The translations under genes and the position numbers were made by a program. From positions 372,001-436,000 of the forward strand of contig JAHHHT010000002.1 of NCBI GenBank assembly GCA_019359235.1: a stretch of DNA of 64,000 nt. The letters are read 5' to 3'. This DNA comes from Oscillatoria princeps RMCB-10 (lineage in GTDB: Bacteria; Cyanobacteriota; Cyanobacteriia; Cyanobacteriales; Oscillatoriaceae). The notes beneath the pieces are model-generated. The model saw only the letters and a list, made by a program, of their open reading frames with translations, did not search any database and was not told the DNA's origin. Below, piece by piece: positions 27,651-43,745 of this stretch (position 1 is its first letter; every line of letters starts with the position of its first letter).

Positions 27651-27880
27651 GGTTTCTTCTCCGCTGTGTTGGTGGTTACTTACCCAGTATCTCGGAAAGT
27701 TAGACGCAGCATCTGCCGGCTGTGTGATGTTCCCTCTGAAGTCGGGGGGGCAAAGGCTCGCCCACTCCCAGCCGGCACTTGGGAAAAACATGCTGGAATA
27801 TATTGACAAATCCACTCATATGTGATATTGACTGAATTCGCCGGCGGCTCGCTCTTAGTAGGGTGCGTTACTGCGTAACG
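27651..27880. other. Upstream region of gshA, junction with the duplicated cassettes
   Basis: No gene. A GTAGGGTGCGTTA/TAACGCTAC inverted repeat at about 27857-27884 abuts the last codons of the Uma2 fragment and marks the left edge of the tandem duplication. Confidence 0.5.
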
Positions 27881-28128
27881 CTACAGCTGTTCTGGGTCAA
27901 TCCCCTTTTCTCGCAATCGCTCTATCAGCGCTTGATAGCGCTGTTGCTCCTGTTCCCGCAGAGCCCGTTCCTGTTCGAGTTGGGCGAGTGCTTGCTCAGC
28001 CCGCCGGCGCTCCTGCTCGCGCAGCTGATCGAGTTCCACCGGCGTCAGGAACCGCTGGTTGTCAGGGCGATAAATCTCCAGAGTGTCTTCTTTGAGCTCA
28101 AACCGTATCCCCAGGAGAGGACTGACCC
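27881..28128 (-). pseudogene. 3' fragment of a Uma2-family gene (second cassette copy)
   Basis: The minus-strand frame reads GIRFELKEDTLEIYRPDNQ, RFLTPVELDQLREQE and ends LIERLREKGIDPEQL-stop, nearly identical to the C-terminal third of the intact Uma2-type gene at 35818-36612. The upstream ~165 codons, including the nuclease core, are missing; in their place are four copies of a 26-bp repeat (28129-28232). It holds the same position after a PLD gene as its intact paralogue, so it is the decayed third gene of cassette B. Confidence 0.88.
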
Positions 28129-28232
28129 CAAAGTTTGTAGTAGGGCTTTAGCCCAAAAGTTTGTAGTAGGGCTTTAGCCCAAAAGTTTGTAGTAGGGCTT
28201 TAGCCCAAAAGTTTGTAGTAGGGCTTTAGCCC
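28129..28232. repeat. Four tandem copies of a 26-bp repeat
   Basis: Each unit is AAAAGTTTGTAGTAG followed by GGCTTTAGCCC, with a GGGCTTTAGCCC palindrome; the copies are identical apart from the first base or two. Diverged units occupy the equivalent place in the other cassette (36621-36739). The array truncates the Uma2 fragment. Confidence 0.92.
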
Positions 28233-28260
28233 TACCGATTGGCACCTGATTTGAAGATAG

Positions 28261-28281
28261 GGACAGGCGAGACGCCTGTCC
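28261..28281. repeat. GGACAGGCG palindrome
   Basis: GGACAGGCG-aga-CGCCTGTCC followed by TACGGGG, the same element as at 671-691, 838-858 and 36777-36797. It lies 18 bases beyond the PLD stop and can fold as a hairpin. Confidence 0.8.
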
Positions 28282-28298
28282 TACGGGGATAGCGCGGA

Positions 28299-30233
28299 TT
28301 ATTTCTTATTTTTGCCTTTAGGTTTTGAGGGAGTTTTACCGGCACCTTTGGAGTTGCTCACCGGCGGGTTTTGAGCGGGTGCGCAGGTGGAGATAAATTG
28401 CACCGGCTCTTCGGTAGCCGGCTGAGCGATGCCAAGGCGGACGAACTCTGCCCAAGCTTCATCACTCAACAGAGTTAAAGCCGTCTCGCGATTTTCACCG
28501 GCAATCGCGCCAACAACTTTCTGCCACCCTTCCCGCAATGAGTCAAGATTCGGGTCTTCTGCTGAAATCTGACTCAGCAAAGAAAGTGCTGTGCCGAAAC
28601 ACGCTGAATCGGGCGATATTTTTTTCGACCTCAGCCCCTGAAGCACAACTTTCAGCCACACCGGCATAAGTTCCAGCCAGTTGTCTTCCAGCAGCCGGTT
28701 GAGCGCCATTTCCTCCATCCCCAGCGCACCCCACATGCAGAGAGGAGATTCAGCGAGTGCCGGCTCGCAGTTTCGCACAGCTTCATGCCATAATTGCTGT
28801 GCGTGGGATTGGAACCGGCTGGCGAGAGAGTTGTAAGCTTCCTGAACTGTTTCGGGAATCGTGACTTTATATACAGTCTCGCCGCGTGGCAATCTGTCGC
28901 CGCGATAGGAGAGCCAGTTGTGGGAACCGCACAAGTGGATTTTCCCATCCACGACTACTTCCTTGGCGTGAGAATTTCCCAGCCAAAATACCTGGACAGC
29001 CGGCAGCCCCTCCGGCGTCTTAACTTCGCGCAGCTTCGCCTCAACTTCCGGTGGTATTGGTCGGTCTTCATCCTCCTGTCTGCGGGAAATTCCATGACCA
29101 ATCATAACCCACACTCCCCGGTTTCCCAGATTCTGGAGGATTTGAATAAATTCGCTATCTACCACTTCCTGAGTCACCCAAGGGGAATAAATCAGGATGT
29201 CGTGACAGCCAGACTTGAGAGTCTCTAAAAAAGTTGAGCGGATCTGACTGTCGCGCAGGAGGACAGCACTGCCGGTCGCTTGGTTTTCCTGGGGCGGAGC
29301 TATCTCCCCCAAAGCCCGCATTTCTCTGACGCTATCCAGCGCTTTTTGCCGAATCTTTTCCAGTCGGGCTTCCACCTCTTGATTTTTCCGCTCCGCAATT
29401 GAGTCGCGCTCACGTGTGAGGCTTTCTTGGGAAACCTCACACAAGTCTGCCAGCGAAAGTTTGTTTTGAGATTCAAGCTCTTTGAGCCTGTCGGACGCTT
29501 TTTCTAAAATTTGCTTGCCGCGCCTGACTTGCAGGGTAAAATTGTCTTCTAAAACATCCAAAATCAGGAAAATAGACAGAGTTTGCCAGATTTCTTCAGT
29601 TTCACCGGCAGCGCTAGCGCTGGTGACAATTTTGCCCTGTTCAGGAACGTGCAGCCCCAGACCTGAAGCCTGAACCCGCTGCTGCACTTCCTCAAGCGGT
29701 AATTCAGACACATCCCCAAACCGGCTCTCAAGTTTGATAAAGTCTTCCAAGTTTGGGAGGTCTACCTGTGCTGAATCTAGGGGAGAAAGCCGAAAGACCG
29801 TGGTTTCCTGCAAGGGGTCATCCAGAGCGTAAAGCTGGTGAAGTTTGGGGGACTGCGGGACAGACCCTTTCTGGTAGAATTCACGCCCTTGAGGGGTGAG
29901 TGCAATGGGCGCTCCGGGTGCGACTTCCAACGTCTGCAATACCTGAAGAGTTGCGGTAGTGTTGCGCACGAATAGAGGGTCTAGCCCCAGGACACTCGCC
30001 AATTCATTTTCTGTTGGGGGTGGGGAAAGTTCAAAGCTGGCGCGGAGTATGAACTCCTCAAGGACGTTGAACTTGCGAGGCTCTGTGACGGTCACGTCTA
30101 CCGGCGTTTGGAACACTTTATAGCGAAACTGGCGCGCCGCCAAGACTGACAAACCCGGGCTTTGCTTCTCAATTTGCTCCGCCCAGACACTGAGTTCCGA
30201 GGCAATGGGTTTATCCGAGGATGCTGGAAACAT
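28299..30233 (-). CDS. Phospholipase-D-family protein of helicase-PLD cassette B
   Basis: 644 residues. The N-terminal ~130 residues (RKFNVLEEFILRASFELSPP through ITLTPQGREF-like ALTPQGREFYQ) look like a winged-helix or similar small domain; a middle region with a coiled coil (DSIAERKNQEVEARLEKIRQ) leads to the PLD domain: DILIYSPWVTQEVV, then HAKEVVVDGK (His422, HxKxxxxD) and GSHNWLSYRG. Only one HKD motif is seen, so a nuclease would need to dimerise, as in Nuc/BfiI. A basic Lys-rich tail (SKPKGKNKK) could bind nucleic acid. ATG 30233 has GGAGAA six bases upstream. It follows the helicase by about 200 bp on the same strand and is probably its partner; nuclease activity is inference. Confidence 0.85.
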   Translation of the reverse strand: MFPASSDKPIASELSVWAEQIEKQSPGLSVLAARQFRYKVFQTPVDVTVTEPRKFNVLEEFILRASFELSPPPTENELASVLGLDPLFVRNTTATLQVLQTLEVAPGAPIALTPQGREFYQKGSVPQSPKLHQLYALDDPLQETTVFRLSPLDSAQVDLPNLEDFIKLESRFGDVSELPLEEVQQRVQASGLGLHVPEQGKIVTSASAAGETEEIWQTLSIFLILDVLEDNFTLQVRRGKQILEKASDRLKELESQNKLSLADLCEVSQESLTRERDSIAERKNQEVEARLEKIRQKALDSVREMRALGEIAPPQENQATGSAVLLRDSQIRSTFLETLKSGCHDILIYSPWVTQEVVDSEFIQILQNLGNRGVWVMIGHGISRRQEDEDRPIPPEVEAKLREVKTPEGLPAVQVFWLGNSHAKEVVVDGKIHLCGSHNWLSYRGDRLPRGETVYKVTIPETVQEAYNSLASRFQSHAQQLWHEAVRNCEPALAESPLCMWGALGMEEMALNRLLEDNWLELMPVWLKVVLQGLRSKKISPDSACFGTALSLLSQISAEDPNLDSLREGWQKVVGAIAGENRETALTLLSDEAWAEFVRLGIAQPATEEPVQFISTCAPAQNPPVSNSKGAGKTPSKPKGKNKK

Positions 30234-30430
30234 CAATTATTCTCCATTCTATCAAAAAAGTTGGCAGTCGCGCGCGAACGCCGGTGGGAGCGCGGGGAAA
30301 CTAAGCTGTTAGGCTTTTAATGTGCATGTGGTCGAAAGGAGGCAGACCCTCCAGAAACCCGGTTTCTTAAAGAAACCGGGTTTCTCAGTACCTCGGAAAC
30401 CGGGTTTCTCAGTACCTCGCTCCCCAACTA
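30234..30430. repeat. Repeat cluster between helicase B and PLD B
   Basis: Contains AAGCTGTTAGGCTTTTAAT (from about 30303), a GAAAGGAGGCAG module, and a GAAACCCGG/CCGGGTTTC palindrome whose second arm plus CTCAGTACCTCG is duplicated (30353-30395 and 30396-30419). Confidence 0.8.
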
Positions 30431-33400
30431 TCAGCTGAGAAGGCTGGAAACATCAACGAGTCCTCCCTGCCGGCGCACAACGTTTGAAACTTCGGAGTAC
30501 ATCCTGCCGGCTTGGCCAGGATGCTGGGTGAATAGGGAGTGGCACCCCACAATCACCAGCAGTTCTTGAGCGCGAGAGAAGGCGACATTCACCCGTTCGG
30601 GCTTTTTGGCAAATCCAACTTTTCCTTGGCGGTTGTTTCTAACCATGCTGACGATTACGACCTGACGTTCCATTCCTTGGAAGCGGTCAACTGTGCCGGT
30701 GCGAATGTGAAGGGAAGGGAAAAGCTGAGGGTCTAAGCGCTCGTCGATCAGTTCGAGCTGAGCGAGATAAAAGGTGATGATGCCTATTTCTTTCCGGGGT
30801 TCACCCAAGGCAATCTTGGGTGCCCACGCGGCTTCCATCTGCTGGCACAAGCGTTCAATAACATCAACTTCCCGAACGTTGAAAGGCGACGTTCCCTGCT
30901 TTTGCTCTTCAAACCCTTCGCTGAGAGGCATCTGAACCCAGATGAGATGCTGGTGTTCTTGGATAATTTCTCCTGCAAGATTGTGTGCGCGTTGCTGGTC
31001 GGGAGCCGGCAGGCCGCATTGCAGCCGGTGTTGGTAAAACTGATTGATGGCTGCCATAATGCTGGGGTGCATCCGGTACTGTACCGTCAGCATCCGCTTG
31101 ATGCTGTCTGCAGCCGCCTCAAATTGCAGCTTGAACAGTGATTCTTCTAGAAAACTCAGTTCGGATGCGGCAATTTCCATCTCTCGGGCAATATCTTCTA
31201 CCGTGCTTTCATTGAGCATGGGTGGCAGCTGCTGGTGGTCGCCGACCAGTACCAACTTTTTGCCTTTCAAAGCGGGGATGAGCAACTCGGGAGGAGTGCA
31301 TTTACTGACTTCATCAATAATCACGACATCGAAGTTTTTAAATTCTTCGGAAAACTCGCGGCGAGCGGCTTGCACGCAGGTGATGCCAATGACGTTGGCA
31401 CTGTCCAGGTAAATTTGCTTCAATTCGCTGCGATCTTGCGCTGAGGGGTTGCGCAGTTTTTCAATCCAGTCTTGAACGAGGTTCTGGTACCGGCTGAGGT
31501 AAGCTTCTTCCTGAGCGAGTTCGTTTTGCCAAGCGTCAAACTGAGCCTTGATTTGGCGCAAAAAGTCGGGGGCGAACAGCCCCGCAGAGGGAACCGCCGG
31601 CTTGACGCGCTCGGGGATTGCGTCCCACGCTTCTTGCCACCAAGTTCGCTCTGCCATTAAAGTTTCTGGCAGGTTCTGCTGTTGGAGTTGAACCTCAATC
31701 TTGCGGAGTTGGCTTTGAGACTCTGCGAGCGGTATTTGAGCGGTTTCTTTTTCTTGTTGCAGGCTATAAACGCGCTCGTTCAGACGGTTTTTGCATAACG
31801 ACAGTACAGCAAAAGGCTCTAAGGAGGAAATCAAGGTTTCTAGTTGACTGGTTTGACTTTGCCAGGAACGCACTTGCGCCGAGAAGTCAGGTGCGGTTGG
31901 CAAAATTTCTGAGGGAGTGCGAAGACCCCGCTCAGCAAGTATGCGCAACTTCTCAGGGACTTGGGGCAGCTGGTAAAGTTCTTGCAAGAGTTGGACAACG
32001 CGGTTAAATTTGCCCTCAGCGTTTTGACGCGCCATTTCCGCCTGAGTGTGAGCGGCTGATCCTTGCATATTGAGGTTGGCAGCCAATCTCTGAAGCTCAT
32101 TGAACTGCTGTCCGAGATGCTGGAGCGTTTTTTCTGTTTCAGCTTTGACTTGTAGCGCGTATGTGCGAGCCTCAATGATGGTGTTAATTACCTCTTGTGC
32201 GAGCCGGTTGAGAGTGGACTCGATATTTTTCGGTTCCCATGAGGCAGCGTACACCTGTTGCATTTCCCTCAAAAACTCGCGGGCGCTTTCAACCACAACT
32301 TGCCGCTGAGTTTTGGTGAGGCGCGGATAAATGCTAAATCTTTCGGCAATTTCGAGCGAATTAGCCCGGTGGTTTGCTGACAGCACCACTGGCGGCTGGG
32401 TGAGACTCCTGTGCAAAAACTCACTGAAGCGAAACTGCTTCCCTGGTGCGTCGCTAAAACCATTCTGCGCTTCATAAGAGAGCGCCTTTCCCAATCGCTC
32501 CCAATCTGGCATATCATCAATAGGGGTTGTTCCATAGCTGGGAACAAGTCGCAAGTTGGCTGACTGGGCGAGCGCCAGCAAGCTCTGCGGTAATTGCAGC
32601 AGAGAATCTGTGAGCGGCTGGCGCTCTTGCAAACATCTCTTCAAGAGATTGTACACTCTAGGCGGACTGGCATGCAGCCAGATATCAACTTCTTTTATAA
32701 GTGAATCTATAGCAGATTTTTTCTTTTCTCGCTCCCCGATTTGTTGCTCTAGGTTTTTCTGCTTTGCTAGCAGTTGCCGGTAGTCGCTTCGCAGCCGGTT
32801 GACGCCGGCAGAGTCGCGATCGTCAACCCGCACGGCTTCCTCAAATTCTCTCAGGGCTGCAGTCGCGTCATTTGCAGCAGCCAATGCCGTCCGAGATTCA
32901 GATATCGAAGAAGCTACAGTCTCGCGCAGCCATGCTGCTAGACCAAATGAGCCACAGCGAGGGTATTCAAAGCCGAGTTCCTTAGCCAGCTTGAGAGCGT
33001 CTTTAACTGTGTTGATAAAGCTTCGCACAGAACTGTCGCCACCGGCATGAGGCTGGAGACGCGACAAAAAATCGACGGTTGCGGGATCTTGCCAGTCCAC
33101 TTTCGCCGCAGACAGCAAGGCTTCCAACTCCGAGATCAGAGATTCGACCTCGCTCTGCTGCATTTCGGCTTGCGTGCGGGCTTTTTCTTGGGCTTCACAG
33201 TTTGCCTCTAAAGTTGCCTTGCGCTCTTGCAATTCTTTCTGAAGAGCTTGGAACGCTTCTTCCGCTTGGAGATAATTAGCAAATCGCTCCGCTGAGGCCA
33301 GCAATTGACGGTACAGGTCAACATTTTCGCGCCGCTTTGCCAGACCTTTTTCGCAGTCGCCGGCAGTATCTCCCAGCCATTTGCCTATTACTTGGTCTTC

Positions 33401-35428
33401 CAGGAAGGGCTGGCCCTCTTCTTGCACTTTATCTGCTTTTCCCTTTCTCAACGCGCGAATCGCCGGATTGTGAACTAACCGGCTCAAGGCGTTATCTACT
33501 GCTAAATTCGCTTGAGAGGCGATCAGGGTGCGTCCCCCCCGCAAGGCAACTTGATAGCAAATCTCAGCAATCACGGTGGTTTTGCCGGTTCCGGGTGGCC
33601 CTTGGATGAGAACCATATCCGGCGCTGAAAGGACTGCTTCTACTGCTGCAATTTGGTCAGGATTAGCAGAGGGAAGCAGCAAATTCTCCGGTCGGAGGTT
33701 GACTGTTTTTTTCGGCGGTCGAGCCTTAGAAGCCTCGAATAAAAACTGGCCCAAATAGGGATTTTGGGAGCGACCGTTTCGCAAGTCGGTTAAGGCTCTT
33801 TCTTTCTGCTTAATCTGGCTGATTTCACCAAAAGCCTCGAAAAACAAGAAACCACTTGCCGGCAGCTGGTAGTGCCCTTCGGCAATGCGTTCAACCATAT
33901 CGGAGTCAAGCATCACGCGAATCTTGCCCTGTTCGGAGTCTACCTCTGCGATTCTGCCCAACTTCTCTCCATCCCGTCCGCCTCTGCCTTCGGGAGAGGA
34001 CTTGAACAGCTTGACTTCTTCCTTTCGCGCCTGAAAAGCCCGCTTCCAAAACTCTTCTCCTGCTAAGGAATTTTCAGCTGAGCCATCAATAGTTGCCTCA
34101 GCCGCCTCAATTTCAAAGGCGATTCGCCGGGTAGACGCGCCATAGTTGTGGCTCAGGAAAGGCACGCAAAACTGACGCGCCTCTGCGATGCGCCGCTCAA
34201 TTGCCACAAAGGCTGTCCACGCTTGCAGCTGTTCTTGTGTGGGCACATGCTCGCCGCACACCGGCACCTTTGCCATGCGAGTCAGTGCTGAGCGCGGCAC
34301 ACCCATTCCAGACTTGTAACTTGGGCGCAGGCGAATGCGGGACAGCACAGCAAAACCATCTGCTTGTCCCCTGTCTGGCAAAACTAAACGAGCGGACAGC
34401 AACCGCAAATCGCCAGATCCATCTGAGGATACAACTGCGAATAAGCTCAAAGTTTTTTCTCGCTCCTCAAGCACTGCCGGCAATTTAACACCCTGCCGGT
34501 CTGTCGCAATTGTGAGTTCCCATCTCTCCTCTCCCGGCTCTTGCCCTTTCCCCTTGCGGCGCACATAGAAGAGTCTTGGCTCGTTTCCCAATATCTCCGA
34601 CAATATATCTTCGGCACGATTGCGCCGAGCTGTGAATTCGGCATAGCTTTCTAGGGCAGCTTTGCCTTCCATATCGCGGATTAAATTCTGGAAAGCCGCC
34701 GCTGTCACGAACTGGTAGCCCCACTCTTCGGAACTTAACCCGTCTTCTTTAGCCGTCAAGGGCGGAATATTACTTCCCTTCGCTTCTAGGGGAGGGGTTA
34801 GGAGAGAGGTCTTTTTAATTTTGGCGGCAACCGCAATCTCTCGCCTTCCCTCTGGTGTCTCCAGCAAGAGATCGCCGGCCAAATTTGTCCCCGCCGGCAC
34901 ATCTTCGGAATTCAGCACAACCTCTAAATTATGCACTCCAGGCGACAGGTGAGAAGTCTTCACCTGCAGCCAACTTAAATCGCATAAAACCTCGCATGGT
35001 GCGCCCACTTGCATCGGCCAAGAACGTTCCACCTGCCGGTTTGTCTCTATCTCCCCAAAATCCAGCACTGCCGGTATGTCCCAGCTCGCTCCTTCCCACT
35101 GGACATTCTCAGCTATTCCGCGCAATTTTACCTGATTCAAAATAGGAGAAGTGCCCGCACCGGCAGACAGCACCACAGCGCCGGTGTCCCCTCCCACAGT
35201 CCGCTCAATTGCCAAATTTTCCAGCCGCACTCCTGGCACTTCAATCACCAGTGCCGGCTCATCAACCGCCCAAATTACTGTATCTGTGCCGGTGCCGCGA
35301 ACCGTAATAGATTTGTCGATTGTGAGTGGCCCTTTGTACTCTCCTGGCGTCAAGCCAATCTCGTCCCCATCTCGGACAATTTGCAGCAAATCGGCCAAGT
35401 TAGAGGGATCGGCTGGGAAGGTTGGCAT
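30431..35428 (-). CDS. Giant UPF1-like SF1 helicase with N-terminal beta-helix and Ig-like region (cassette B)
   Basis: 1665 residues. Residues 1-110 (DLLQIVRDGDEIGLTPGEYK, LTIDKSITVRGTG, VRLENLAIER) have the periodic pattern of a right-handed parallel beta-helix; 115-205 (VLDFGEIETNRQVERSW...WLQV...VPAGTNLAGDLLLE) resemble an Ig/BACON-like domain. The helicase core has GPPGTGKTT (about 610-618), SQANLAVDNAL (Ia), IIDEVSKCTPPELL (II, about 1371), VGDHQQLPPML (III), TVQYRMHPSI (IV), GTVDRFQGMERQVVIVSMVR (V) and ERVNVAFSRAQ (VI), the COG1112/DNA2-UPF1 pattern. A very long coiled-coil insertion separates motifs Ia and II. GGGAG precedes ATG 35428. It probably works with the PLD protein downstream in phage defence; this is inference from domain pairing. 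Confidence 0.88.
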   Translation of the reverse strand: MPTFPADPSNLADLLQIVRDGDEIGLTPGEYKGPLTIDKSITVRGTGTDTVIWAVDEPALVIEVPGVRLENLAIERTVGGDTGAVVLSAGAGTSPILNQVKLRGIAENVQWEGASWDIPAVLDFGEIETNRQVERSWPMQVGAPCEVLCDLSWLQVKTSHLSPGVHNLEVVLNSEDVPAGTNLAGDLLLETPEGRREIAVAAKIKKTSLLTPPLEAKGSNIPPLTAKEDGLSSEEWGYQFVTAAAFQNLIRDMEGKAALESYAEFTARRNRAEDILSEILGNEPRLFYVRRKGKGQEPGEERWELTIATDRQGVKLPAVLEEREKTLSLFAVVSSDGSGDLRLLSARLVLPDRGQADGFAVLSRIRLRPSYKSGMGVPRSALTRMAKVPVCGEHVPTQEQLQAWTAFVAIERRIAEARQFCVPFLSHNYGASTRRIAFEIEAAEATIDGSAENSLAGEEFWKRAFQARKEEVKLFKSSPEGRGGRDGEKLGRIAEVDSEQGKIRVMLDSDMVERIAEGHYQLPASGFLFFEAFGEISQIKQKERALTDLRNGRSQNPYLGQFLFEASKARPPKKTVNLRPENLLLPSANPDQIAAVEAVLSAPDMVLIQGPPGTGKTTVIAEICYQVALRGGRTLIASQANLAVDNALSRLVHNPAIRALRKGKADKVQEEGQPFLEDQVIGKWLGDTAGDCEKGLAKRRENVDLYRQLLASAERFANYLQAEEAFQALQKELQERKATLEANCEAQEKARTQAEMQQSEVESLISELEALLSAAKVDWQDPATVDFLSRLQPHAGGDSSVRSFINTVKDALKLAKELGFEYPRCGSFGLAAWLRETVASSISESRTALAAANDATAALREFEEAVRVDDRDSAGVNRLRSDYRQLLAKQKNLEQQIGEREKKKSAIDSLIKEVDIWLHASPPRVYNLLKRCLQERQPLTDSLLQLPQSLLALAQSANLRLVPSYGTTPIDDMPDWERLGKALSYEAQNGFSDAPGKQFRFSEFLHRSLTQPPVVLSANHRANSLEIAERFSIYPRLTKTQRQVVVESAREFLREMQQVYAASWEPKNIESTLNRLAQEVINTIIEARTYALQVKAETEKTLQHLGQQFNELQRLAANLNMQGSAAHTQAEMARQNAEGKFNRVVQLLQELYQLPQVPEKLRILAERGLRTPSEILPTAPDFSAQVRSWQSQTSQLETLISSLEPFAVLSLCKNRLNERVYSLQQEKETAQIPLAESQSQLRKIEVQLQQQNLPETLMAERTWWQEAWDAIPERVKPAVPSAGLFAPDFLRQIKAQFDAWQNELAQEEAYLSRYQNLVQDWIEKLRNPSAQDRSELKQIYLDSANVIGITCVQAARREFSEEFKNFDVVIIDEVSKCTPPELLIPALKGKKLVLVGDHQQLPPMLNESTVEDIAREMEIAASELSFLEESLFKLQFEAAADSIKRMLTVQYRMHPSIMAAINQFYQHRLQCGLPAPDQQRAHNLAGEIIQEHQHLIWVQMPLSEGFEEQKQGTSPFNVREVDVIERLCQQMEAAWAPKIALGEPRKEIGIITFYLAQLELIDERLDPQLFPSLHIRTGTVDRFQGMERQVVIVSMVRNNRQGKVGFAKKPERVNVAFSRAQELLVIVGCHSLFTQHPGQAGRMYSEVSNVVRRQGGLVDVSSLLS

Positions 35429-35469
35429 GGGTACTCCCTGATAGGTGATGGTGTGATGTTGACCTTTTT

Positions 35470-35499
35470 ATAATAAAGCCGCACCATCGCTCTTGTCAA
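35470..35499 (-). promoter_or_regulatory. Sigma70-like promoter of helicase cassette B
   Basis: On the minus strand TTGACA (35494-35499), 18-base spacer, TATTAT (35470-35475), about 40 bases before the helicase ATG. The same boxes and spacing occur before the paralogous helicase (43227-43256), and the flanking sequence has diverged more than the boxes. Confidence 0.75.
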
Positions 35500-35817
35500 G
35501 ATAAATTTCAAATTTTTTCCGGCACTGCCGGCACACCTGCTTTGTCCTCTTCCCGGCAATTGTGCCGGGAATGTTCCCCTAAGAGGGTTTAGGGGCGAGT
35601 TCGACGACTTTCCCTATTAGCTACTCCCTTTAACCGGCAGCCGCTTTTACCACATATCGATCCCCGGTGCAAGATGTCAGGTAGGGTAAGAAACGGGGTA
35701 AGAAACCGGGTTTCTTTTACTGGGGAAGCCAATATGTAATGGCACACAGCTAAAAGAAACCCGGTTTCTAGATCCTTGACGTTTTCTTTAGAATTGATTT
35801 CCCAACCGGCACTCGTG
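35500..35817. other. Junction between the two duplicated cassettes
   Basis: 35606-35681 is a 76-bp block closely matching 43512-43587, the same distance class upstream of each helicase promoter; it marks the right end of the duplication. Between 35699 and 35770 two GAAACCGGGTTTC-family arms form a large inverted repeat. The block at 35606-35681 reads in one minus frame as SICGKSGCRLK, but no start or gene is apparent. Confidence 0.65.
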
Positions 35818-36612
35818 TTACACCTGTTCTGGGTCAATCCCCCTTTCTCGCAATCGCTCTATCAAAGCTTGATAGCGCTGTTGCTCCTGTTGCAGTTGGG
35901 CAAGTGCTTGCTCAGCCCGCTGGCTTTCTTGCTCAGCCCGCTGGCTTTCTTGCTCAGCCCGCTGGCGCTCTTGCTCAGCCCGCTGGCGCTCTTGCTCAGC
36001 CCGCTGGCGCTCTTGCTGGCGCAGCTGATCCAGTTCCACCGGCGTCAGGAACCGCTGGTTGTCAGGGAAATAAATCTCCAGGGTGTCTTCTTTGAGTACA
36101 AACCGTATCCCCAGACGAGGACTGACCCAACCGTCGATCAGCTCAATCTCTTCTAAGTTGTTCCCATTCCGCAGCAAGCCGGTCAGTTCCACTGTGTCTG
36201 GGTCATAGATGTAATATTCCTCAACGCCATAGCGCTCATAAAAAAGCAGTTTCTTGGTCATCGCTGTGACGGTGTTGCCAGGGGAGAGGATTTCAAACAC
36301 CACCTGTGGGGGAATGTTTGCTTCTTCCCACTGTTTGTAGGAACCTCTGTCGCCTTTTGGTCTGCCAAACACAACCATGACATCCGGCGCTTGCCGGTGG
36401 AGACTTCCCCGGAGGGGATACCAGAAAAGATCGCCGGCGATGAATACATCGGCGATGGCGGCAAACAGGATTTCCAGGTTTTCCTTGATAGTTACAATCC
36501 AGCGGAATTGCTTCGTGTTGTCTGCCATTGGCTGTCCGTCGCTGTCGGGGTAGGTGATTTCTGCTTGGGTTTCAGGTTGCAGTTGCTGTACCATGCCACT
36601 AATCTCACTCAT
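35818..36612 (-). CDS. Uma2-family (DUF820) PD-(D/E)XK nuclease-like protein of cassette A
   Basis: 264 residues. The core has HRQAPDVMVVFG (Asp), PPQVVFEILSPGNT (Glu) and TKKLLFYERYGVEEYYIYDP, the usual Uma2 restriction-endonuclease-fold pattern; Uma2 proteins are very numerous in cyanobacteria and mostly uncharacterised. After LTPVELDQLRQQE the C-terminus is a heptad repeat, QERQRAE or QESQRAE, encoded by five 21-bp units (35907-36011), then a coiled coil ending GIDPEQV. The start at ATG 36612 (MSEISGMVQ) is preferred; the frame extends to 36639 only through a GGGCTAAAGCCC repeat. ATG 36594 is an alternative. It follows the PLD gene by about 200 bp. A truncated copy lies at 27881-28128. Confidence 0.87.
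   Translation of the reverse strand: MSEISGMVQQLQPETQAEITYPDSDGQPMADNTKQFRWIVTIKENLEILFAAIADVFIAGDLFWYPLRGSLHRQAPDVMVVFGRPKGDRGSYKQWEEANIPPQVVFEILSPGNTVTAMTKKLLFYERYGVEEYYIYDPDTVELTGLLRNGNNLEEIELIDGWVSPRLGIRFVLKEDTLEIYFPDNQRFLTPVELDQLRQQERQRAEQERQRAEQERQRAEQESQRAEQESQRAEQALAQLQQEQQRYQALIERLRERGIDPEQV
35907..36011. repeat. Five 21-bp units encoding heptads in the Uma2 protein
   Basis: Units of CTTGCTCAGCCCGCTGG plus CTTT or CGCT; each adds seven residues to the C-terminal coiled coil. Copy-number change would alter coil length without a frameshift. The B copy of this region has only one such unit. Confidence 0.85.
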
Positions 36613-36620
36613 ACTTTTAT

Positions 36621-36739
36621 TGTAGGGCTTTAGCCCCAAGTTCGCAGTTGGGCTTTAGCCCAAAAGTTAGTAGTTGGGCTTCAGCCCAAATTTCGTAGTT
36701 GGGCTGAAGCCCAAAGTTCGTAGTAGGGCTTTAGCCCAA
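36621..36739. repeat. Diverged tandem GGGCTTTAGCCC repeats
   Basis: About five 24-26-bp units, each with a GGGCTTTAGCCC, GGGCTTCAGCCC or GGGCTGAAGCCC palindrome and a GTTCGTAGT- or GTTAGTAGT-like spacer. It is the counterpart of the array at 28129-28232, followed by the same ATTGGCACCTGATTTGAAG sequence. Confidence 0.85.
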
Positions 36740-36776
36740 TCGATTGGCACCTGATTTGAAGATAGGGACAGGCGAG

Positions 36777-36797
36777 GGACAGGCGAGACGCCTGTCC
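36777..36797. repeat. GGACAGGCG palindrome downstream of PLD A
   Basis: Same element as at 28261-28281 in the equivalent place of the other cassette, here preceded by a partial duplicate of its left arm (GGACAGGCGA). Confidence 0.8.
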
Positions 36798-36813
36798 TAC
36801 GGGAGAGAGCGGA

Positions 36814-38751
36814 TTATTTCTTCTTTTTGCCTTTATTTTTTGAAGAAGTTTTACTGTCACCTTTCGATTTGTTCACCGGCTGTTTTTGGGCGGGGGCATA
36901 GGTGGCGATAAATTTCACCGGCGAGTCGATAGCCGACGAGGCGATACCAAGGCGGACAAACTCTGCCCACACTTCCTCACTCAACAGCGTTAAAGCCGTC
37001 TCCCGATTGCTGCCGGCAATCGCGCCAACAACTTTCTGCCATCCCTCCCGCAATGAGTCAAGATTCGGGTCTTCTGCTGAAAACTGACTCAGCAAAGAAA
37101 GTGCTGTGCCGAAACAAGCTGAATCGGGGGATATCTTTTTCGACCTCAGCCCCTGACGCACCACTTTCAGCCACACCGGCATAAGTTCCAGCCAGCTGTT
37201 TTTCTGTATTTGGTTGAGTGCGATTTTCTCCATACCCAGGGCACCCCAAATACAGAGAGGCACTTCCGCGAGTGCGGCATCCCGATTTCGCACAGCATTT
37301 TTCCACGATTTTTGTGCGTAGGATTGGAACCGGCTGGCGAGAAATTTGTAAGCTTCCCCGACTTGTTCGGCACTCGTAACTTTATACGCAGTCTCGCCGC
37401 GTGGCAATCTGTCGCCGCGATAGGAGAGCCAGTTTTGGGAGCCGCACAAGTGGATTTTCCCATCCACAACTATTTCTTTGGCGTGGGAATTGCCCAGCCA
37501 AAATACCTGCACAGCCGGCAGCCCTTCCGGCGTCTTAACTTCGCGCAGCCGTGCCTCAACTTCCGGTGGGATTGGGCGGTCTTCATCCTCCTGTTTGCGG
37601 GCAATTCCATGCCCAATCAGAAACCACACTCCCCGCTTAGCCAGATTCTGGAGAAGTTCAATAAAATCCTTATCTACCACTTCCTGAGTCACCCAAGGGG
37701 AATAAATCAGGATGTCGTGACGCCCCGACTTGAGAGTTTCTAAAAAAGTTGGCCTAATCTGACTGTCGCGCAGCAGGAGCGCCGTGCCTTTTTCCTCACT
37801 TTCCTTGGGCGGAGTCTTGTCCCCTGCTGCCCTAAGTTCTTTTGCGGTGGCGATCGCCTGCAGCTGAATTTTATCCAGTCTCGCCTCAACGTATTGATTT
37901 CTCTTATTGAGCAGTGTTTCGCGCTCAGCGGCAATGGTTTCGTCGGTCAGGTACAGCAAACCCTGCAAGGATACTGTCCCTTCGGCTTGCAGGATGTCCA
38001 GCAAGTCCGAGGCATACTGCAAAATGGTATTTCCCCGTCTCACTTGCACTCTGACCGCATCTTCTAGGGCGTCGAAGCAGACGATAATTGATATCGGTTG
38101 CCAGATGATTTGAGTCTCATCAGTTACCTGAGCTGCAGTGAGTATTTTACCATCTTCCGGGACATGAAGCCCTAAACCTGAAGCTTGAACCAGCCGCTGG
38201 AGTTCCTCAAGCGGTAATGAGGGAACCTCGCCACATCGGTTTTCGATTGAAATAAAAGATTTTAAATCAGGCAGGTCTATCTGTGTTTCCTGCAAAGGGG
38301 AAGAGCGATAAACAAGATTTCCCCGCAAGGGATCGGCAACCGCATAAATTTTTTTAGTTTGTGGGGGTTGCGGGACAGAGCCTTGCTCGTAGAATTGCCG
38401 CCCTTGAGGGGTGAGTTCGATTTTGTCTGTGCCCGCCGGTGCCAAAGTTTGTAAAGCCCGCAGGTTTCTGGTGGTATTGCGCACAAATACAGGGTCAAAG
38501 CCTAATAAATCTGCCAAGTCATCCGCTGTTGTGGGCGGGTCAAATTCACTGCCGGCGCGGAGGATAAATTCCTCAAGAACGTTGAATTTGCGGGGGGCGC
38601 TGATCGTGACTTCCACCGGCGTTTGATACACGCTATAGCGAAACTGACGCGCCGCCAGCACTGACACACCAGTTGGACTCTGGTTTTCAATTTGCTCCAC
38701 CAATTCCCGCAACTGGGGGTCAATCGGTTTAGGAGACGGAGATAGAAGCAT
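36814..38751 (-). CDS. Phospholipase-D-family protein of helicase-PLD cassette A
   Basis: 645 residues, paralogue of the 28299-30233 protein along its whole length, with the same order: helix-turn-helix-like N-terminal part (RKFNVLEEFILRAGSEFDPP), coiled coil (NKRNQYVEARLDKIQLQA), PLD domain with DILIYSPWVTQEVVDKDF, HAKEIVVDGK (His423) and GSQNWLSYRG, and a Lys-rich tail ending NKGKKKK. One HKD motif only. Start at ATG 38751: GGAGG lies 8 bases upstream, whereas the in-frame ATG at 38775 would place that ribosome site inside the coding region. It lies about 190 bp after helicase A and is probably co-expressed. Confidence 0.85.
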   Translation of the reverse strand: MLLSPSPKPIDPQLRELVEQIENQSPTGVSVLAARQFRYSVYQTPVEVTISAPRKFNVLEEFILRAGSEFDPPTTADDLADLLGFDPVFVRNTTRNLRALQTLAPAGTDKIELTPQGRQFYEQGSVPQPPQTKKIYAVADPLRGNLVYRSSPLQETQIDLPDLKSFISIENRCGEVPSLPLEELQRLVQASGLGLHVPEDGKILTAAQVTDETQIIWQPISIIVCFDALEDAVRVQVRRGNTILQYASDLLDILQAEGTVSLQGLLYLTDETIAAERETLLNKRNQYVEARLDKIQLQAIATAKELRAAGDKTPPKESEEKGTALLLRDSQIRPTFLETLKSGRHDILIYSPWVTQEVVDKDFIELLQNLAKRGVWFLIGHGIARKQEDEDRPIPPEVEARLREVKTPEGLPAVQVFWLGNSHAKEIVVDGKIHLCGSQNWLSYRGDRLPRGETAYKVTSAEQVGEAYKFLASRFQSYAQKSWKNAVRNRDAALAEVPLCIWGALGMEKIALNQIQKNSWLELMPVWLKVVRQGLRSKKISPDSACFGTALSLLSQFSAEDPNLDSLREGWQKVVGAIAGSNRETALTLLSEEVWAEFVRLGIASSAIDSPVKFIATYAPAQKQPVNKSKGDSKTSSKNKGKKKK

Positions 38752-38942
38752 TAATGATTCCTCCACAAAATTCAATGAATTTACCCTCGTTCCCAGGCTC
38801 CGCCTGGGAACGTAATCTGGAGGCTCTGCCTCCTTTCAACGGAAAAGCAGGTTAAAAGCCTAACAGCTTATTTTAGGGCGCAGGCGAGACGCCTGCGCTA
38901 CAGAAAATTAATATGTTGCCGGCACGCCGGCTCACATCTATT
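38752..38942. repeat. Repeat cluster between helicase A and PLD A
   Basis: Contains CGTTCCCAGGC/GCCTGGGAACG, GGAGGCTCTGCCTCC, the module TAAAAGCCTAACAGCTTA (inverse of the one at 30303), and a GCGCAGGCG-aga-CGCCTGCGC variant palindrome (38879-38898). Confidence 0.75.
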
Positions 38943-41900
38943 TTAGCTCAAGATGCTAGAAACATCAATCAGTCCTTGATTGCGGCGAACAGCATCAGCA
39001 ACTTTGGAGTACCTCCTGCCGGTTTCGCCGGCGTGCTGGGTGAATAGGGAGTGACACCCCACAATCACGAGCAATTCCTGAGCGCGAGAGAAGGCGACAT
39101 TCACCCGTTCCGGCTTTTTGGCAAATCCGACGCTCTTGTTGCCGTTGTTCCGCACCATGCTGACAATAACAACGGGGCGCTCCATACCCTGAAATCGGTC
39201 AACGGTGCCGGTTCTAATCTGAAGGGAGGGGAAGCTTCTATTGCTGAGCATCTCCTCGATTCGCCTTAACTGTGCGCCGTAGAAGGTGATGATGCCAATT
39301 TCTTTCCTGCGTTTCCCCTCGGCAACCTTGGGACTCCAGGTATCTTCCATTTCCTGGCACATAGCGTCAATGACTTCAATTTCCCTGGGATTAAAGAAAG
39401 AGGTTCCCTCGCGCCGCTCCTCAAACCCCTGCTCAACCGGCATCTTCAGCCAGATGAGATGGTGATTTTCTTGGATAGTAGAACCGGCTAGGTTGTGTGC
39501 GCGTTGTTTGTCTGGTTCTGAGATGCCGCATTCCAGGCGCTCCTCGTAAAATTGATTGATGGCACCCATGATGTGGGGGTGCATGCGATACTGGATGGAG
39601 AGCTGGCACTTGAGGCTTTCATCCGCAGCTTTAAATTGGGTTTTGAACAGGGACTCTTCTAGGAAGGAAATGTCCTCTGGCGCACTCCCAATTTCTTCGG
39701 CAATCTCTTCTAGAGAGTGTTCGTGCAGCATGGGGGGTAGCTGCCGGTAGTCACCAATCAGCACTAACTTTTTGCCTTTCAGTGCGGGGATGAGCAATTC
39801 TGGAGGCGTGCATTTGCTCACCTCGTCAATGATGATAACATCAAAGTTATTGAAGTCTGTGGCGAAATCGCGACTGGCGGCTTGGCTGCAGGTAATGCCA
39901 ATGACGTTGGCGCTGTCGATATAAATCCGCCTCAAATCGCTCTTGTCTTGCGCGGATGGGTTGCGCAGTCTGGCAATCCAGTCTCGGATAAAGTTTTCAT
40001 ACTGGCTCAGGTAATCTTCTTCCTCATCGAGTTCCATTTGCCAATCGTCGAATTGAGCTTTAACGGTGCGCAAAAAGTCCAGATCGAACAAGCCGGTGAG
40101 GGGAACTGCCGGTTTGATGTGCGCCGGCATTGCATCAAACGCGGACTCCCACCATTTTCGCTCAGCGATTAAGGCTTCTGGCAGCTCCTGCTGTTGCAGT
40201 TGAGCCTCAATTTCGAGGAGTTTGGTTTGTGACTCTGCTAGCTGACTTTTTGCCGTCTCAGCTTCTTGTCGCAGGCGAGACATGAGATTATTTTTGCTTT
40301 CCCGCAACACAGCCAAAGAATCGAGCGATTCCATCAGCTTATTTAGCTGGCTGATGCGATCCAATAGGATTCCATACACGTCACGGTAAATCTGTAGCTG
40401 CCTTTGCGCGTCAGCAATTTGCTTCTTAAGGTTTGCGTCAGGCACCCCCCGGTCAAAACTTAGCTGATACCTTCTTTGCAATTGAGAAACAGTTTCCGAC
40501 TGTTTCTTGAGAGATGCTTGTATCTTCACCAAATCCTTACTCGCTTCAGATATCCGATTGGGCACATTATCCCGCAACCAAACAGCTAAACCAAACAGTT
40601 CTCGGTTGGGAGGCGCTATGCCAAGTTCACGAGCCAGCTTAACCGCCTTTTGAACATTTGCTTGGAAGTCTCGCACGGAGCTGTCTAAAAGCATCTGCGG
40701 TCTGAGACTGTCCAACAACTTGATGACTGCTGGGTCTTCCCAATTCACTGCCGGCGCAGATGCCAGCAGGGAATCCAGCCCAGATATAACAGATTCTATC
40801 TGGCGCAGCTTGGCTTCAGCTGCCGCCCGTTTGTTTTCTTGCGCTCTGTAGAGTTCCTGTAGGTTTGCTTTCTTCTTTTGCAATTCCTTCAGACTCCCTC
40901 GGAGCGCTTCCTCCGCTCTCACATACGCGGCAAATCGAGCCGCCGGCTCTAGCAATTGCAAGAGCAATTCAACCTTCTCCCACCGTTTAGCCAAACGCTT
41001 CTCACAATCCTCAGCCGTATTTTGCAGCCAAGTGCCAATCACTTTCTCTTCCAGAAATGGCAACCCCTCCTCCTCCACACTCTCGGCGCGTCCTTTTCGC
41101 AAGGCGCGAATAACCGGACTGTGAATCAACCGGCTCAAGGCGTTGTCCACTGCTAAATTCGCTTGCGAGGCGATAAGTGTGCGTCCCCCCCGCAAGGCAA
41201 CTTGATAGCAAATCTCGGCAATCACGGTGGTTTTGCCGGTTCCCGGCGGTCCTTGGATGAGAGCCAAATCCGGCGCTGACAGCACCGCTTCTACTGCTGC
41301 AATCTGGTCGGGATTAGCAGTGGGGAGTAACAAATCCCCTGGCTTCAGTTTAACACTTACCCGCGCCGGTCGCGCCTTAGAAGCATCAAAAAAGAACTCC
41401 CCCAGATAGGGATTCTGGGTGCTGCCCTTCTGCAAGTCTTCTAAAGCTCTTTTCTTGCGCTTAATCTGGGTAATGTCCCCCACTGCCTCGAAAGACAAGA
41501 AGCCATTTTTGGGGAGCTGGTAGTGCCCACCGGCCATTTTCTCAACCAGGTCAGATTCCAGCCTCACCTTAATGAAACCCTTTTCCCGGTCAACTTCTTC
41601 GATAGACCCCAATAAGACAGCCAACATCTCGTTTTCCGCGCTGCGCTTCACCGGCTTGTTGCCGGTGCCATTCTCCTTTTCCTCACCCCTGTCTTCGCTT
41701 GGGGGTTGGAAAAGCTTCACGTCTTCATTTCTCGCCTTGACGGCACGATTCCAGAAGTCCTCCAGTTTAAGAAATTCTTCAGTTGACTTATCAGCCCTCG
41801 CCAATCGGGGATTTACTTCAAAAGTAATCCGCCTTGTCGCCGAACCATAGTTGTGACCTAAGAACGGCACGAAAAACTGCCGTGTCTTGGCGATCCGCTC

Positions 41901-43184
41901 CTCAATATTCAAAAACGCCTTCCAAACTTGCAGCTGTTCTTCTGTGGGCACATGCTCGCCGCACACCGGCATTTTTTCCATGCGTGTCAGTGCTGAGCGC
42001 GGCACACCGATTCCATACTGGTGACTTGAGAGCAGGCGAATGCGGGACAGCACAGCAAAACCATCTGTTTGTCCCTTGTCTTGCGGGACTAAACGAGCGG
42101 ACAGCAACCGCAAACCGCCATATCCATTTGAGGACACAACTGCTAGGAGGCTCAAAGTTTTTCCTCGCTCCTCAAGCCGTGCCGGCAATTCCACATCATC
42201 CAGATCGGTTGCGATTGTGAGTTCCCATTTCTCTTCGCCCGTATCTTGCCCTTGTCCCTTGCGGCGCACATAGAAGAGTGCTGGCTCCTCTTCTAATATC
42301 TCAGACATTATCTCTTCTGCCCGATTCCGGCGATCTGAGTAGTCGGCATAGCGTTCAAGAGCAGCTTTGCCGTCGATCTCGCGGATAAGATTCTCTATCA
42401 CCTTGTCCCCGACGAACCGATAGCCCCAATCTTCACAACCTAACCCCCCCAACCCGTCTTCCCCAGTAGTGACGGCGGTAATATTACTCCCCTCCCCTCT
42501 TGTAGACACGCGATTTATCGCGTCTTGTATAGCGTCTTGTATCGCATCTGAAGTTTGGGGAGAGGTCTTTTTGATTTTTCCCGCAACCGCAATCTCTCGG
42601 ATTCCGTCAGTCGCCCCCAAAAAGATGGCACCGGCCAGATTTGTCCCCGCCGGCACATCTCTAGAATTCAGCACAACCTCCAGATTCTGCAACCCCGGAT
42701 ACAGCTGAGAATTCTTCACCTGCAACCAGGGCAAATCCCACAAAACCTCGCAGGGTGCGCCCACTTGCACCGGCCAAGAACGCTCCACCTGCCGGTTTGT
42801 CTCTATCTCCCCAAAATCCAGCACTGCCGGTATGTCCCAGATCGCTCCTTCCCACTGGACATTCTCAGCTACCCCGCGCAATTTTACCTGATTCAGGATA
42901 GGGGAAGTGCCCCCACCGGCAGCCACTACAATTGCGCCGGTGTCCCCTCCCACAGTCCGCTCAATTGCCAAATTTTCCAGCCGCACCCCAGGCACTTTCA
43001 CCACCAGTGCCGGCTCATCAACTGCCCAAATCAACGTATTTGGGCCGGTGCCGCGAATCGTAATAGATTTGTCGATTGTGAATGGCCCTTTGTAATCTCC
43101 CGGCGTCAAGGCAATCTCGTGCCCATCTCGGACAATTTCTAGCAAATCGGCAAAGTTAGAGGGGTCTGCTGGGAAGGTTGGCAT
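38943..43184 (-). CDS. Giant UPF1-like SF1 helicase with N-terminal beta-helix and Ig-like region (cassette A)
   Basis: 1413 residues; by eye 84 of the first 100 residues match helicase B. Same order: beta-helix-like 1-110, Ig-like 115-205, a variable linker, helicase motifs GPPGTGKTT (about 643-651), SQANLAVDNALSRL, IIDEVSKCTPPELL (about 1119), IGDYRQLPPML, IQYRMHPHIMGAINQFY, GTVDRFQGMERPVVIVSMVR and ERVNVAFSRAQELL. The coiled coil between motifs I and II is about 286 residues shorter than in B. A dispersed repeat inserted at 42501-42552 adds the linker residues SDAIQDAIQDAINRVSTR. Start ATG 43184 (MPTFPADPSN) has GGGAG before it; the frame runs on to 43268 but those residues are absent from B. 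Likely the first gene of a helicase-PLD-Uma2 operon. Confidence 0.88.
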   Translation of the reverse strand: MPTFPADPSNFADLLEIVRDGHEIALTPGDYKGPFTIDKSITIRGTGPNTLIWAVDEPALVVKVPGVRLENLAIERTVGGDTGAIVVAAGGGTSPILNQVKLRGVAENVQWEGAIWDIPAVLDFGEIETNRQVERSWPVQVGAPCEVLWDLPWLQVKNSQLYPGLQNLEVVLNSRDVPAGTNLAGAIFLGATDGIREIAVAGKIKKTSPQTSDAIQDAIQDAINRVSTRGEGSNITAVTTGEDGLGGLGCEDWGYRFVGDKVIENLIREIDGKAALERYADYSDRRNRAEEIMSEILEEEPALFYVRRKGQGQDTGEEKWELTIATDLDDVELPARLEERGKTLSLLAVVSSNGYGGLRLLSARLVPQDKGQTDGFAVLSRIRLLSSHQYGIGVPRSALTRMEKMPVCGEHVPTEEQLQVWKAFLNIEERIAKTRQFFVPFLGHNYGSATRRITFEVNPRLARADKSTEEFLKLEDFWNRAVKARNEDVKLFQPPSEDRGEEKENGTGNKPVKRSAENEMLAVLLGSIEEVDREKGFIKVRLESDLVEKMAGGHYQLPKNGFLSFEAVGDITQIKRKKRALEDLQKGSTQNPYLGEFFFDASKARPARVSVKLKPGDLLLPTANPDQIAAVEAVLSAPDLALIQGPPGTGKTTVIAEICYQVALRGGRTLIASQANLAVDNALSRLIHSPVIRALRKGRAESVEEEGLPFLEEKVIGTWLQNTAEDCEKRLAKRWEKVELLLQLLEPAARFAAYVRAEEALRGSLKELQKKKANLQELYRAQENKRAAAEAKLRQIESVISGLDSLLASAPAVNWEDPAVIKLLDSLRPQMLLDSSVRDFQANVQKAVKLARELGIAPPNRELFGLAVWLRDNVPNRISEASKDLVKIQASLKKQSETVSQLQRRYQLSFDRGVPDANLKKQIADAQRQLQIYRDVYGILLDRISQLNKLMESLDSLAVLRESKNNLMSRLRQEAETAKSQLAESQTKLLEIEAQLQQQELPEALIAERKWWESAFDAMPAHIKPAVPLTGLFDLDFLRTVKAQFDDWQMELDEEEDYLSQYENFIRDWIARLRNPSAQDKSDLRRIYIDSANVIGITCSQAASRDFATDFNNFDVIIIDEVSKCTPPELLIPALKGKKLVLIGDYRQLPPMLHEHSLEEIAEEIGSAPEDISFLEESLFKTQFKAADESLKCQLSIQYRMHPHIMGAINQFYEERLECGISEPDKQRAHNLAGSTIQENHHLIWLKMPVEQGFEERREGTSFFNPREIEVIDAMCQEMEDTWSPKVAEGKRRKEIGIITFYGAQLRRIEEMLSNRSFPSLQIRTGTVDRFQGMERPVVIVSMVRNNGNKSVGFAKKPERVNVAFSRAQELLVIVGCHSLFTQHAGETGRRYSKVADAVRRNQGLIDVSSILS
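42501..42552. repeat. Dispersed ACGCGAT repeat inserted in the helicase A coding sequence
   Basis: An imperfect palindrome AGACACGCGAT/ATCGCGTCT followed by two degenerate GCGTCTTGTAT units, in frame. A relative lies at 45563-45586. Helicase B lacks it. Confidence 0.7.
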
Positions 43185-43226
43185 GGGTACTCCCTGATAG
43201 GTGATGGGGTGAGGCAGATTTTTTTT

Positions 43227-43256
43227 AGAATAACACCGCCCAACTGAGCCTGTCAA
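43227..43256 (-). promoter_or_regulatory. Sigma70-like promoter of helicase cassette A
   Basis: TTGACA (43251-43256), 18 bases, TATTCT (43227-43232) on the minus strand, with the same spacing and position as in cassette B. Confidence 0.75.
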
Positions 43257-43745
43257 TAGAAATTGCAAATTTTAACCGGCACAGCCGGCACCCCTCACTC
43301 ACCGCTCCGTGGGCCAACGAGTGCCGGCGCACCAGCTTTGTCCTCTCACCGGCAGTTGTGCCAGTAATTATGCCGGCACACTTTCTTGTGGGGTGGGATC
43401 TCTCTTACACCATTCTCAATAAACCGCTGGCTCCCGCCACCCTTGAAAAGTCCGATTCCCCCCTTTTTAAGGGGGGTTAGGGGGGATCTGAGTTTAGGGG
43501 GGATTTTAGAGGACTTTCCCTATTCGCCACTTGCTTTAACCGGCAGCCGCATTTACCACATATCGCTCCCGGCTGCAAGATGTCAGGCAGCTTCGGATTG
43601 CCCCGCTCTTGAACTGCCGGCATCTTGGCCGGCATTATACCAAGTTGTGACAGATAGTATTTTTTACGCCCGACGAAAACCCCTTTATGTCCGGGGCTTA
43701 AATCCCAAATCCAAAATCTAAAATCCATGCATTGGCATTCCTCCC
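43257..43745. other. Upstream region of cassette A
   Basis: Rich in GCCGGCA hexamers. A poly-C/poly-G inverted repeat (about 43457-43490; CCCCCCTTTTTAAGGGGGG with a GGGGGGATC end) interrupts sequence shared with cassette B. 43512-43587 is the 76-bp block shared with 35606-35681. No gene seen. Confidence 0.6.

Follow-up and report, generated by a model that had tools for sequence, protein, structure and literature searches.

In a 64-kb stretch of the genome of Oscillatoria princeps RMCB-10 (the window, to whose whole length all coordinates given here refer), two gene pairs lie side by side between a gene for an HDAC-like deacetylase and a gshA-like gene, and on balance they are probably two copies, separated long ago, of a two-protein system of the Mokosh type. 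Direct repeats running from 27882/35819 to 35684/43590 delimit two head-to-tail units exactly where the initial annotation had placed them; that annotation had described each unit as a three-gene cassette of helicase, PLD nuclease and Uma2 gene, whereas each is a two-gene pair consisting of the helicase MkoA and of MkoB. The order in the window is HDAC-like gene, MkoA2-MkoB2, Uma2, MkoA1-MkoB1, gshA-like gene, SpoU methylase and a gene that we take to be LysM/M23-like; both pairs, the Uma2 gene, the two bordering genes and the methylase gene are on the minus strand. The locus is real and unusual, and its function is presumably defensive.

Both MkoA proteins are superfamily 1 (SF1) helicases of the UPF1/COG1112-like type, with AAA_11 and AAA_12 regions and kinship to SMUBP-2 and UPF1, and here the first reading of the sequence was correct. 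MkoA1 (30431..35428, 1665 amino acids (aa)) finds SMUBP-2 (1.7e-37) and UPF1 (8e-36) among PDB structures and has a long insertion between the helicase halves, which alignment indicates to be much shorter in MkoA2 (38943..43184). The latter has 1413 aa when counted from the ATG that aligns with the start of copy 1; the listed open reading frame (ORF) begins at a TTG at 43268. MkoB1 (28299..30236, 645 aa) and MkoB2 (36814..38775, 653 aa, 67% identical to MkoB1) are composed of a winged helix, a coiled coil and one PLD region, and the two copies share 65-67% identity across the aligned parts of both proteins. The likeness to Mokosh that had been proposed was borne out by the PADLOC profiles, which matched MkoA1 at 2.7e-111, MkoA2 (scanned from the TTG) at 7.7e-114, MkoB1 at 9.4e-33 and MkoB2 at 2.7e-34; these profile matches strongly support a Mokosh affinity of both genes. 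A single-HKD PLD protein is also present in each unit, as annotated: the HKD motif is visible in both copies, and in the AlphaFold2 model of MkoB1 (mean predicted local distance difference test score 83.4) the predicted PLD nuclease domain (28782..29279, aa 320-485) matches NucT, Nuc and Zucchini, whereas the Pfam PLDc_2 match of MkoB, at about 23 bits, stays under the Pfam cut-off of 27. Structural matches of MkoB to TrmBL2 were set aside for their root-mean-square deviations of 16-22.

The amino-terminal part of MkoA1 is predicted to comprise a right-handed beta-helix (35075..35428, residues 1-118) followed by a PapD/ASH/MSP-like beta-sandwich (34808..35089, residues 114-207). The beta-helix/Ig-like N-terminus of the initial annotation is thus retained as a predicted model in which the Ig-like part is better supported than the beta-helix; neither the N-terminus of MkoA nor the N-domain of MkoB has a Pfam family above cut-off, and their folds are named from model searches alone. 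Moreover, it is a feature of some lineages only. The beta-helix region is present in the window, Oscillatoria sp. PCC 10802, Argonema, Trichodesmium, locus L048, two Ktedonobacteria and most of the Microcoleaceae-type rows; among the latter it is absent from the 1434-aa MkoA proteins of code g9 and from that of Tychonema (L118), and among Nostocaceae-labelled rows it occurs only in L145, which groups with Microcoleaceae. In the 2014-aa MkoA of Ktedonosporobacter, a kinase domain (2.5e-56) precedes the beta-helix region.

Mokosh type I shares with the window an SF1 COG1112-type helicase and a separate PLD protein encoded by neighbouring genes, in addition to the strong PADLOC matches. It differs in that the canonical MkoA has a Ser/Thr kinase at its N-terminal end (PADLOC model positions 21-294 match the kinase; the additional Ser/Thr kinase domain is mentioned in excerpts of PMC11672841), whereas the MkoA of the window begins with the predicted beta-helix and PapD-like domain, and in that the window pair is chromosomally anchored and many relatives lack its PLD domain or have another in its place. 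Mokosh type II is one fused gene according to excerpts of PMC10013915 and PMC11672841, whereas the window units have two separate ORFs, even though the type II MkoC model matches the helicases (1.1e-30, 1.8e-34) and the PLD proteins (3.1e-10, 3.9e-10). With DISARM DrmC, Nuc/NucT and Zucchini, only the HKD nuclease fold or PLD domain is common, and the DrmC profile matches of the two PLD proteins are weak (7.4e-4, 4.9e-4). The pair could also be a CnuH-CnuE pair of the CoCoNuT systems deprived of its McrBC GTPase. By description, excerpts of PMC11090510 give CnuH as a UPF1-like helicase with a helical, in part coiled-coil insertion after Walker A and CnuE as a downstream elongated protein with a winged helix-turn-helix, a coiled coil and a varied effector, which is an architecture and an operon order like those seen here, and they present type III-C, the type with PLD, as primarily cyanobacterial. 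However, the neighbours examined hold no CnuB/CnuC-type gene, and no McrB/McrC-type gene was found among the immediate neighbours (Pfam for six flanking proteins, PADLOC matches listed for nine). MkoB has one PLD/HKD region instead of the winged helix-turn-helix fused to two PLD domains of type III-C, no OB/SmpB-like N-terminus was identified in the pair, and the strong profile matches are to Mokosh, the CnuH and CnuE proteins being known here from descriptions alone. We consider this alternative improbable.

By analogy with Mokosh and CnuH-CnuE, the UPF1-like helicase MkoA would scan or translocate on foreign RNA or single-stranded DNA. MkoB would dock on MkoA through its winged-helix N-domain and its long helix (270-309), probably against the MkoA insertion, and would deliver a Nuc/Zucchini-like single-HKD PLD nuclease, for which dimerisation would be needed to cut. 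The beta-helix and PapD-like N-terminus, at the position of the kinase in the canonical protein, may serve as a sensor or regulator, and the resulting complex would presumably act against viruses. As to Mokosh itself, degradation of viral transcripts is stated in excerpts of PMC11291487, and the mechanism is listed as unknown in those of PMC12926258.

The two copies have a mosaic history. The initial annotation had called the unit "duplicated and diverging"; there are indeed two copies, but their cores are old and the unit ends are much more alike. The divergent inner block extends in unit 1 from MkoA1 aa 413 to MkoB1 aa 343 (29208..34192, minus strand; counterpart at about 37723-41897). Between the window's copies, identical codons for the same amino acid number 438/769 within this block and 436/527 outside it, a contrast attained in 0/200 permutations. 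Oscillatoria sp. PCC 10802 (L094) has the same tandem array with both copies, and its block from MkoA 413 to MkoB 326 gives 431/747 against 441/523 outside (0/200 permutations); no such block appears in the orthologue comparisons, where the observed value was reached in 62/200 and 147/200 permutations. Orthologous segments of the two arrays are 82-100% identical, and copies within one genome 45-85%. In the inner-block tree, copy 2 falls within a Microcoleaceae group (99/98), of which L145, whose genome bears the label Richelia, is also a member; Argonema is the next to join (100/100), and copy 1 lies outside; the outer-part trees bring the four copies together, with moderate values for MkoB (89/66) and weak ones for MkoA (72/44), so that the synonymous-codon test is the stronger evidence. 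This contrast between inner and outer parts, in codons and in trees, points to two old helicase-adaptor cores with similar sensor and nuclease ends, and either conversion of the ends or the swapping-in of a core may have produced it. A simple lineage-specific tandem duplication, diverging towards new phage specificities, would account for head-to-tail units of near-equal length and for outer parts that are 70-85% identical with low synonymous divergence. It is very doubtful, given the placement of copy 2 apart from copy 1 in the core tree, the sharp synonymous breakpoints and the presence in PCC 10802 of both copies with similar breakpoints; we rejected a recent duplication of this kind and read the array instead as a mosaic, with old cores and ends that resemble each other more. 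The two copies may have separate specificities, and selection for these is possible.

MkoA and MkoB form a conserved neighbourhood well beyond this array. At 99 of 108 distinct loci with an MkoB N-domain, a same-strand MkoA helicase lies upstream in the fetched stretch, at 1 kb or less in 79 and farther in 20; MkoA is lacking at 8 loci where at least 1.5 kb was available and at 1 more that is cut. The neighbourhood of helicase and MkoB gene is conserved, whereas the Uma2 component of the initial annotation is found at only 18 of the 121 loci of a separate survey described below. At the first 40 fetched loci, 14 MkoB proteins, those of L049, L051 and L052 among them, include the PLD region and 20 are short, consisting of the N-domain alone (280-316 aa); there are furthermore 2 broken pairs, 2 canonical-type PLD genes, one MkoB without a PLD domain between its N- and C-parts (L069) and one fusion to DarT (L073). 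In the last of these (9555-11090), the N-domain of MkoB is joined to a DarT-like DNA ADP-ribosyltransferase (PF14487, 2.3e-18) next to an MkoA helicase; in L091 (5968-7386), from a genome of the window's family, it precedes another C-terminal domain with no clear Pfam match, again next to MkoA. Mapping the PLD state of 90 rows, 71 with PLD and 19 without, onto the MkoA tree gives 4 changes, of which at least three losses are a safe count because one node lacks resolution; counts of state changes do not in themselves separate gain from loss, and loss is preferred because the outgroup rows carry PLD. That tree comes from a fast LG+G4 run, which warned of long branches; the long-branch row L048 makes deep nodes unsure. 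The short MkoB proteins are under purifying selection (three groups, with 28, 10 and 9 pairs, have median ratios of nonsynonymous to synonymous substitution rates, dN/dS, of 0.23-0.27), as are the accompanying MkoA proteins (dN/dS 0.15-0.22), and Walker A, DE and motif VI are intact in every complete MkoA adjoining a short MkoB; at L050 and L069, no complete MkoA was present within the fetched stretch. No PLD sequence was detected in 22 short-form loci by tblastn with the PLD region and C-terminus at E 0.01.

A replacement effector beside the short MkoB was sought and none was recognised, the next gene being GshA where the HDAC-gshA site is kept and otherwise, by eye, unrelated-looking ORFs. 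Two deeply diverged MkoA genes stand in tandem with one MkoB in the fetched stretch of three Nostoc loci (L102, L149, L157). Five others (L105, L110, L113, L116, L158) and other Nostoc have, by eye, a gene for a 292-aa membrane-transporter-like protein between MkoA and MkoB. In two genomes of family code f6, MkoA-like helicases of 1207 and 1198 aa, with a kinase-like start by eye, adjoin PLD genes (L200, 4388-9454; L201, 5753-10789). The window's own genome also has a third, apparently decayed Mokosh-type locus (L075, 7503-10028; C35:184000-203900), in which a kinase with a shortened helicase of 634 aa, matched in its AAA_12 part alone, precedes a PLD ORF of 156 aa, with PADLOC matches to MkoA at 8.8e-141 and to MkoB at 1.1e-38. 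Canonical-type PLD matches elsewhere in the genome (L074, L075) are found in genome G382 and in this one.

It is conceivable, although we would place it somewhat below an even chance, that MkoA and the N-domain of MkoB are the true functional unit. They would form a helicase-adaptor chassis inherited vertically at one chromosomal site, with an optional or exchangeable nuclease (PLD, DarT, another C-domain or none); nuclease-free pairs would act alone, and arrays would keep two insulated cores that share sensor and effector by gene conversion.

The position of the pair is often conserved. Our sample of the phylum comprised 386 genomes, with a gshA match (1e-60) in 195 and an HDAC match (1e-120) in 85; the search scored few candidates per genome, and absences hold at that sensitivity. 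HDAC and gshA share one contig in 55 genomes, and in 30 of these they are on the same strand within 17 kb, with HDAC upstream. In 14 of the 30 the gap measures 5.3-15.9 kb, and MkoAB lies inside it in all 14; in the other 16 it is 60-1824 bp (60-481 bp in 14 of them), and the MkoB N-domain was not matched in these genomes with an unoccupied site, of which G382 is one. G376 has its two border genes on opposite strands at a distance of 20 kb, MkoAB being next to HDAC, and in the remaining 24 of the 55 genomes they are far apart. The same flanks enclose the MkoAB pair in many Nostocales. Of the 41 genomes with MkoB, 14, or about a third, show the full site by the gap measure; in the others, one border is kept, the contig is cut or the pair is elsewhere. 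At 37 site loci, mostly from Nostocales and from genomes of the same family code and with the window left out, MkoA distances follow those of the flanks (rho 0.65, 0/999 permutations) nearly as closely as those of GshA follow HDAC (0.70), and rho is 0.69 for the MkoB N-domain against the flanks and 0.85 for MkoA against the MkoB N-domain; the outliers are L045 and L147, with a second MkoA lineage. MkoAB is probably an old resident of the chromosome at the HDAC-gshA site, with vertical inheritance there in Nostocales and, to judge from the common position, in the window too. A parsimony reconstruction of where the pair lies, which gave 7 changes on the MkoA tree, was not used because many of the "elsewhere" rows are cut contigs. 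The site was also considered as a generic hotspot with varied cargo, which is unsupported in this sample; a small toxin-antitoxin-like pair was noticed there by eye in G042. No MkoAB remnants were detected at the empty or rearranged sites L204-L212 at E 0.01.

Several observations weigh against a Mokosh-type defence system. Defence genes are seldom fixed in position and vertically inherited. Many pairs are found away from the site, among them those of Microcoleaceae, genus code g10, Trichodesmium and Ktedonobacteria, which shows that the pair has also been moved or transferred. No kinase family was found for either MkoA (among 25 of the 26 Pfam matches of MkoA1 and all 18 of MkoA2), and the system is therefore filed as a variant rather than as canonical Mokosh type I; the NERD domain (PF08378), listed for type I in excerpts of PMC10952713, had no match in the same rows. 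The PLD-less MkoB proteins at 20 of the first 40 loci imply that the nuclease is dispensable in many lineages, and three further proteins (L049, L051, L052) retain HxKx4D and have lost the GSxNW part. Eight of the nine flanking window proteins scanned with PADLOC for defence-gene context had no match at 0.001; the exception, at a distance of about 10 kb (12717-18122), is an 1801-aa Ser/Thr-kinase protein with matches to PD-T4-6 kinase models that reach 6.7e-56. The pair is not part of a recognised mobile island, and the signs of a defence-island context are weak. Finally, no phage assay of these cyanobacterial pairs was found in the literature searched, to the extent that its sources were accessible; in searches on Mokosh and cyanobacteria, MkoA/MkoB, DarT and defence finders, which left subscription journals mostly outside, no title or abstract dealt with this locus.

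Another reading is that of a housekeeping or domesticated nucleic-acid surveillance pair, in which a UPF1/SETX-like helicase acts with a winged-helix adaptor outside immunity and the PLD domain is an optional accessory. Co-inheritance with the flanking genes at a fixed site, purifying selection on PLD-less MkoB together with intact MkoA motifs, and the 22 short-form loci with no PLD sequence detected all fit such a role. Nevertheless, the distribution is patchy (the MkoB N-domain occurs in 41/386 genomes and 20/143 genera), 16 sites are unoccupied, copies are broken in G385 and G068, tandem copies and a DarT fusion exist, and the strongest PADLOC matches are to Mokosh; a housekeeping role is rather unlikely, though to be taken seriously. 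Within the window's family, the helicase is present in 3/3 genomes of the genus and in 1/5 others. The initial annotation had held that homologues which are mostly not adjacent, not enriched in defence islands and core genes in all relatives would speak against its reading. This describes the case only by half: the two genes adjoin each other and often sit at a fixed position, but their distribution is patchy. A Mokosh-type system remains our preferred reading; what the annotation observed is partly confirmed and its interpretation partly supported.

The same cannot be said of the Uma2 gene as a component. Only unit 2 has it intact (35818..36639, between MkoB2 and MkoA1; PF05685, 1.8e-16), and not each unit, as had been annotated. 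Comparison of the repeats and sequences indicates that unit 1 holds the 3' tail alone (27881..about 28128, minus strand): the start and the PF05685 core, within some 500 bp, are missing, and in their place a dispersed 26-bp repeat forms an array (28126..28255). Its counterpart lies at 36633-36760, so that one array is found downstream of each MkoB, and the 30-base pattern of the array has 172 matches in the genome (84 + 88) at up to 3 mismatches, against 0 for the reversed control. A three-gene system with Uma2 as a second nuclease would be in keeping with the Uma2 genes that adjoin the units in the window, PCC 10802 and Argonema, and with further genes, some of them Uma2-like, between MkoA and MkoB in several Nostoc. 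However, a survey with a hidden Markov model seeded from positive loci, over 121 loci that include same-genome repeats and cut contigs, found a Uma2-like ORF within 1.5 kb of MkoA or MkoB at 18 and none at that distance at 103; by beta-helix state, it is nearby at 5/20 loci with a beta-helix MkoA (three from one genome) and at 13/101 others. With the window's Uma2 as query, no match was obtained at the first 40 loci, and the genome itself has 64 Uma2 matches. The frequency, the remnant in unit 1 and these many matches led us to reject Uma2 as a component, which leaves the three-gene system a very remote prospect, and we judge Uma2 to be a frequent passenger. Uma2 fragments also stand just upstream of gshA (L208, 3831-4260) in G389, a same-family genome without an MkoA match; they are 61.5% identical to the window's Uma2 and 73% to that of PCC 10802.

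The borders of the site are, upstream, the HDAC-like deacetylase gene (43746..44684; PF00850, 6.6e-59) and, downstream, the gshA-like glutamate-cysteine ligase gene (GCS2; 26499..27815; PF04107, 2.3e-56), both conserved neighbours, followed by a SpoU-family RNA methyltransferase gene (25874..26335; PF00588, 5.3e-33), presumably TrmL-like, as the next conserved neighbour. Pfam assigns the six flanking proteins to GCS2, SpoU methylase, HDAC, MEKHLA, GDE and, for one, no family. A 38-bp palindromic repeat occurs at 30350-30387, between MkoA1 and MkoB1, and again at 46231-46268. At the place of this repeat, the MkoA and MkoB ORFs overlap in 63/99 relatives when counted from first starts, which possibly exaggerate the overlap.

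Defence genes have mostly been studied in fast-turnover islands. Here, by contrast, a pair of Mokosh type appears to have stayed at a single position of the core genome in Nostocales and in an Oscillatoria, and the strongest new points are this common site, the repeated loss of the nuclease from pairs that are otherwise conserved, and the mosaic make-up of the array. The family thereby offers natural "experiments" on which parts are needed: the nuclease has been lost three times or more and in one genome exchanged for DarT, and the putative sensor is present or absent; further variants join kinase and beta-helix in a Ktedonobacterium and recombine two cores in one array. Such natural PLD-plus and PLD-minus pairs make the mechanism of Mokosh testable.

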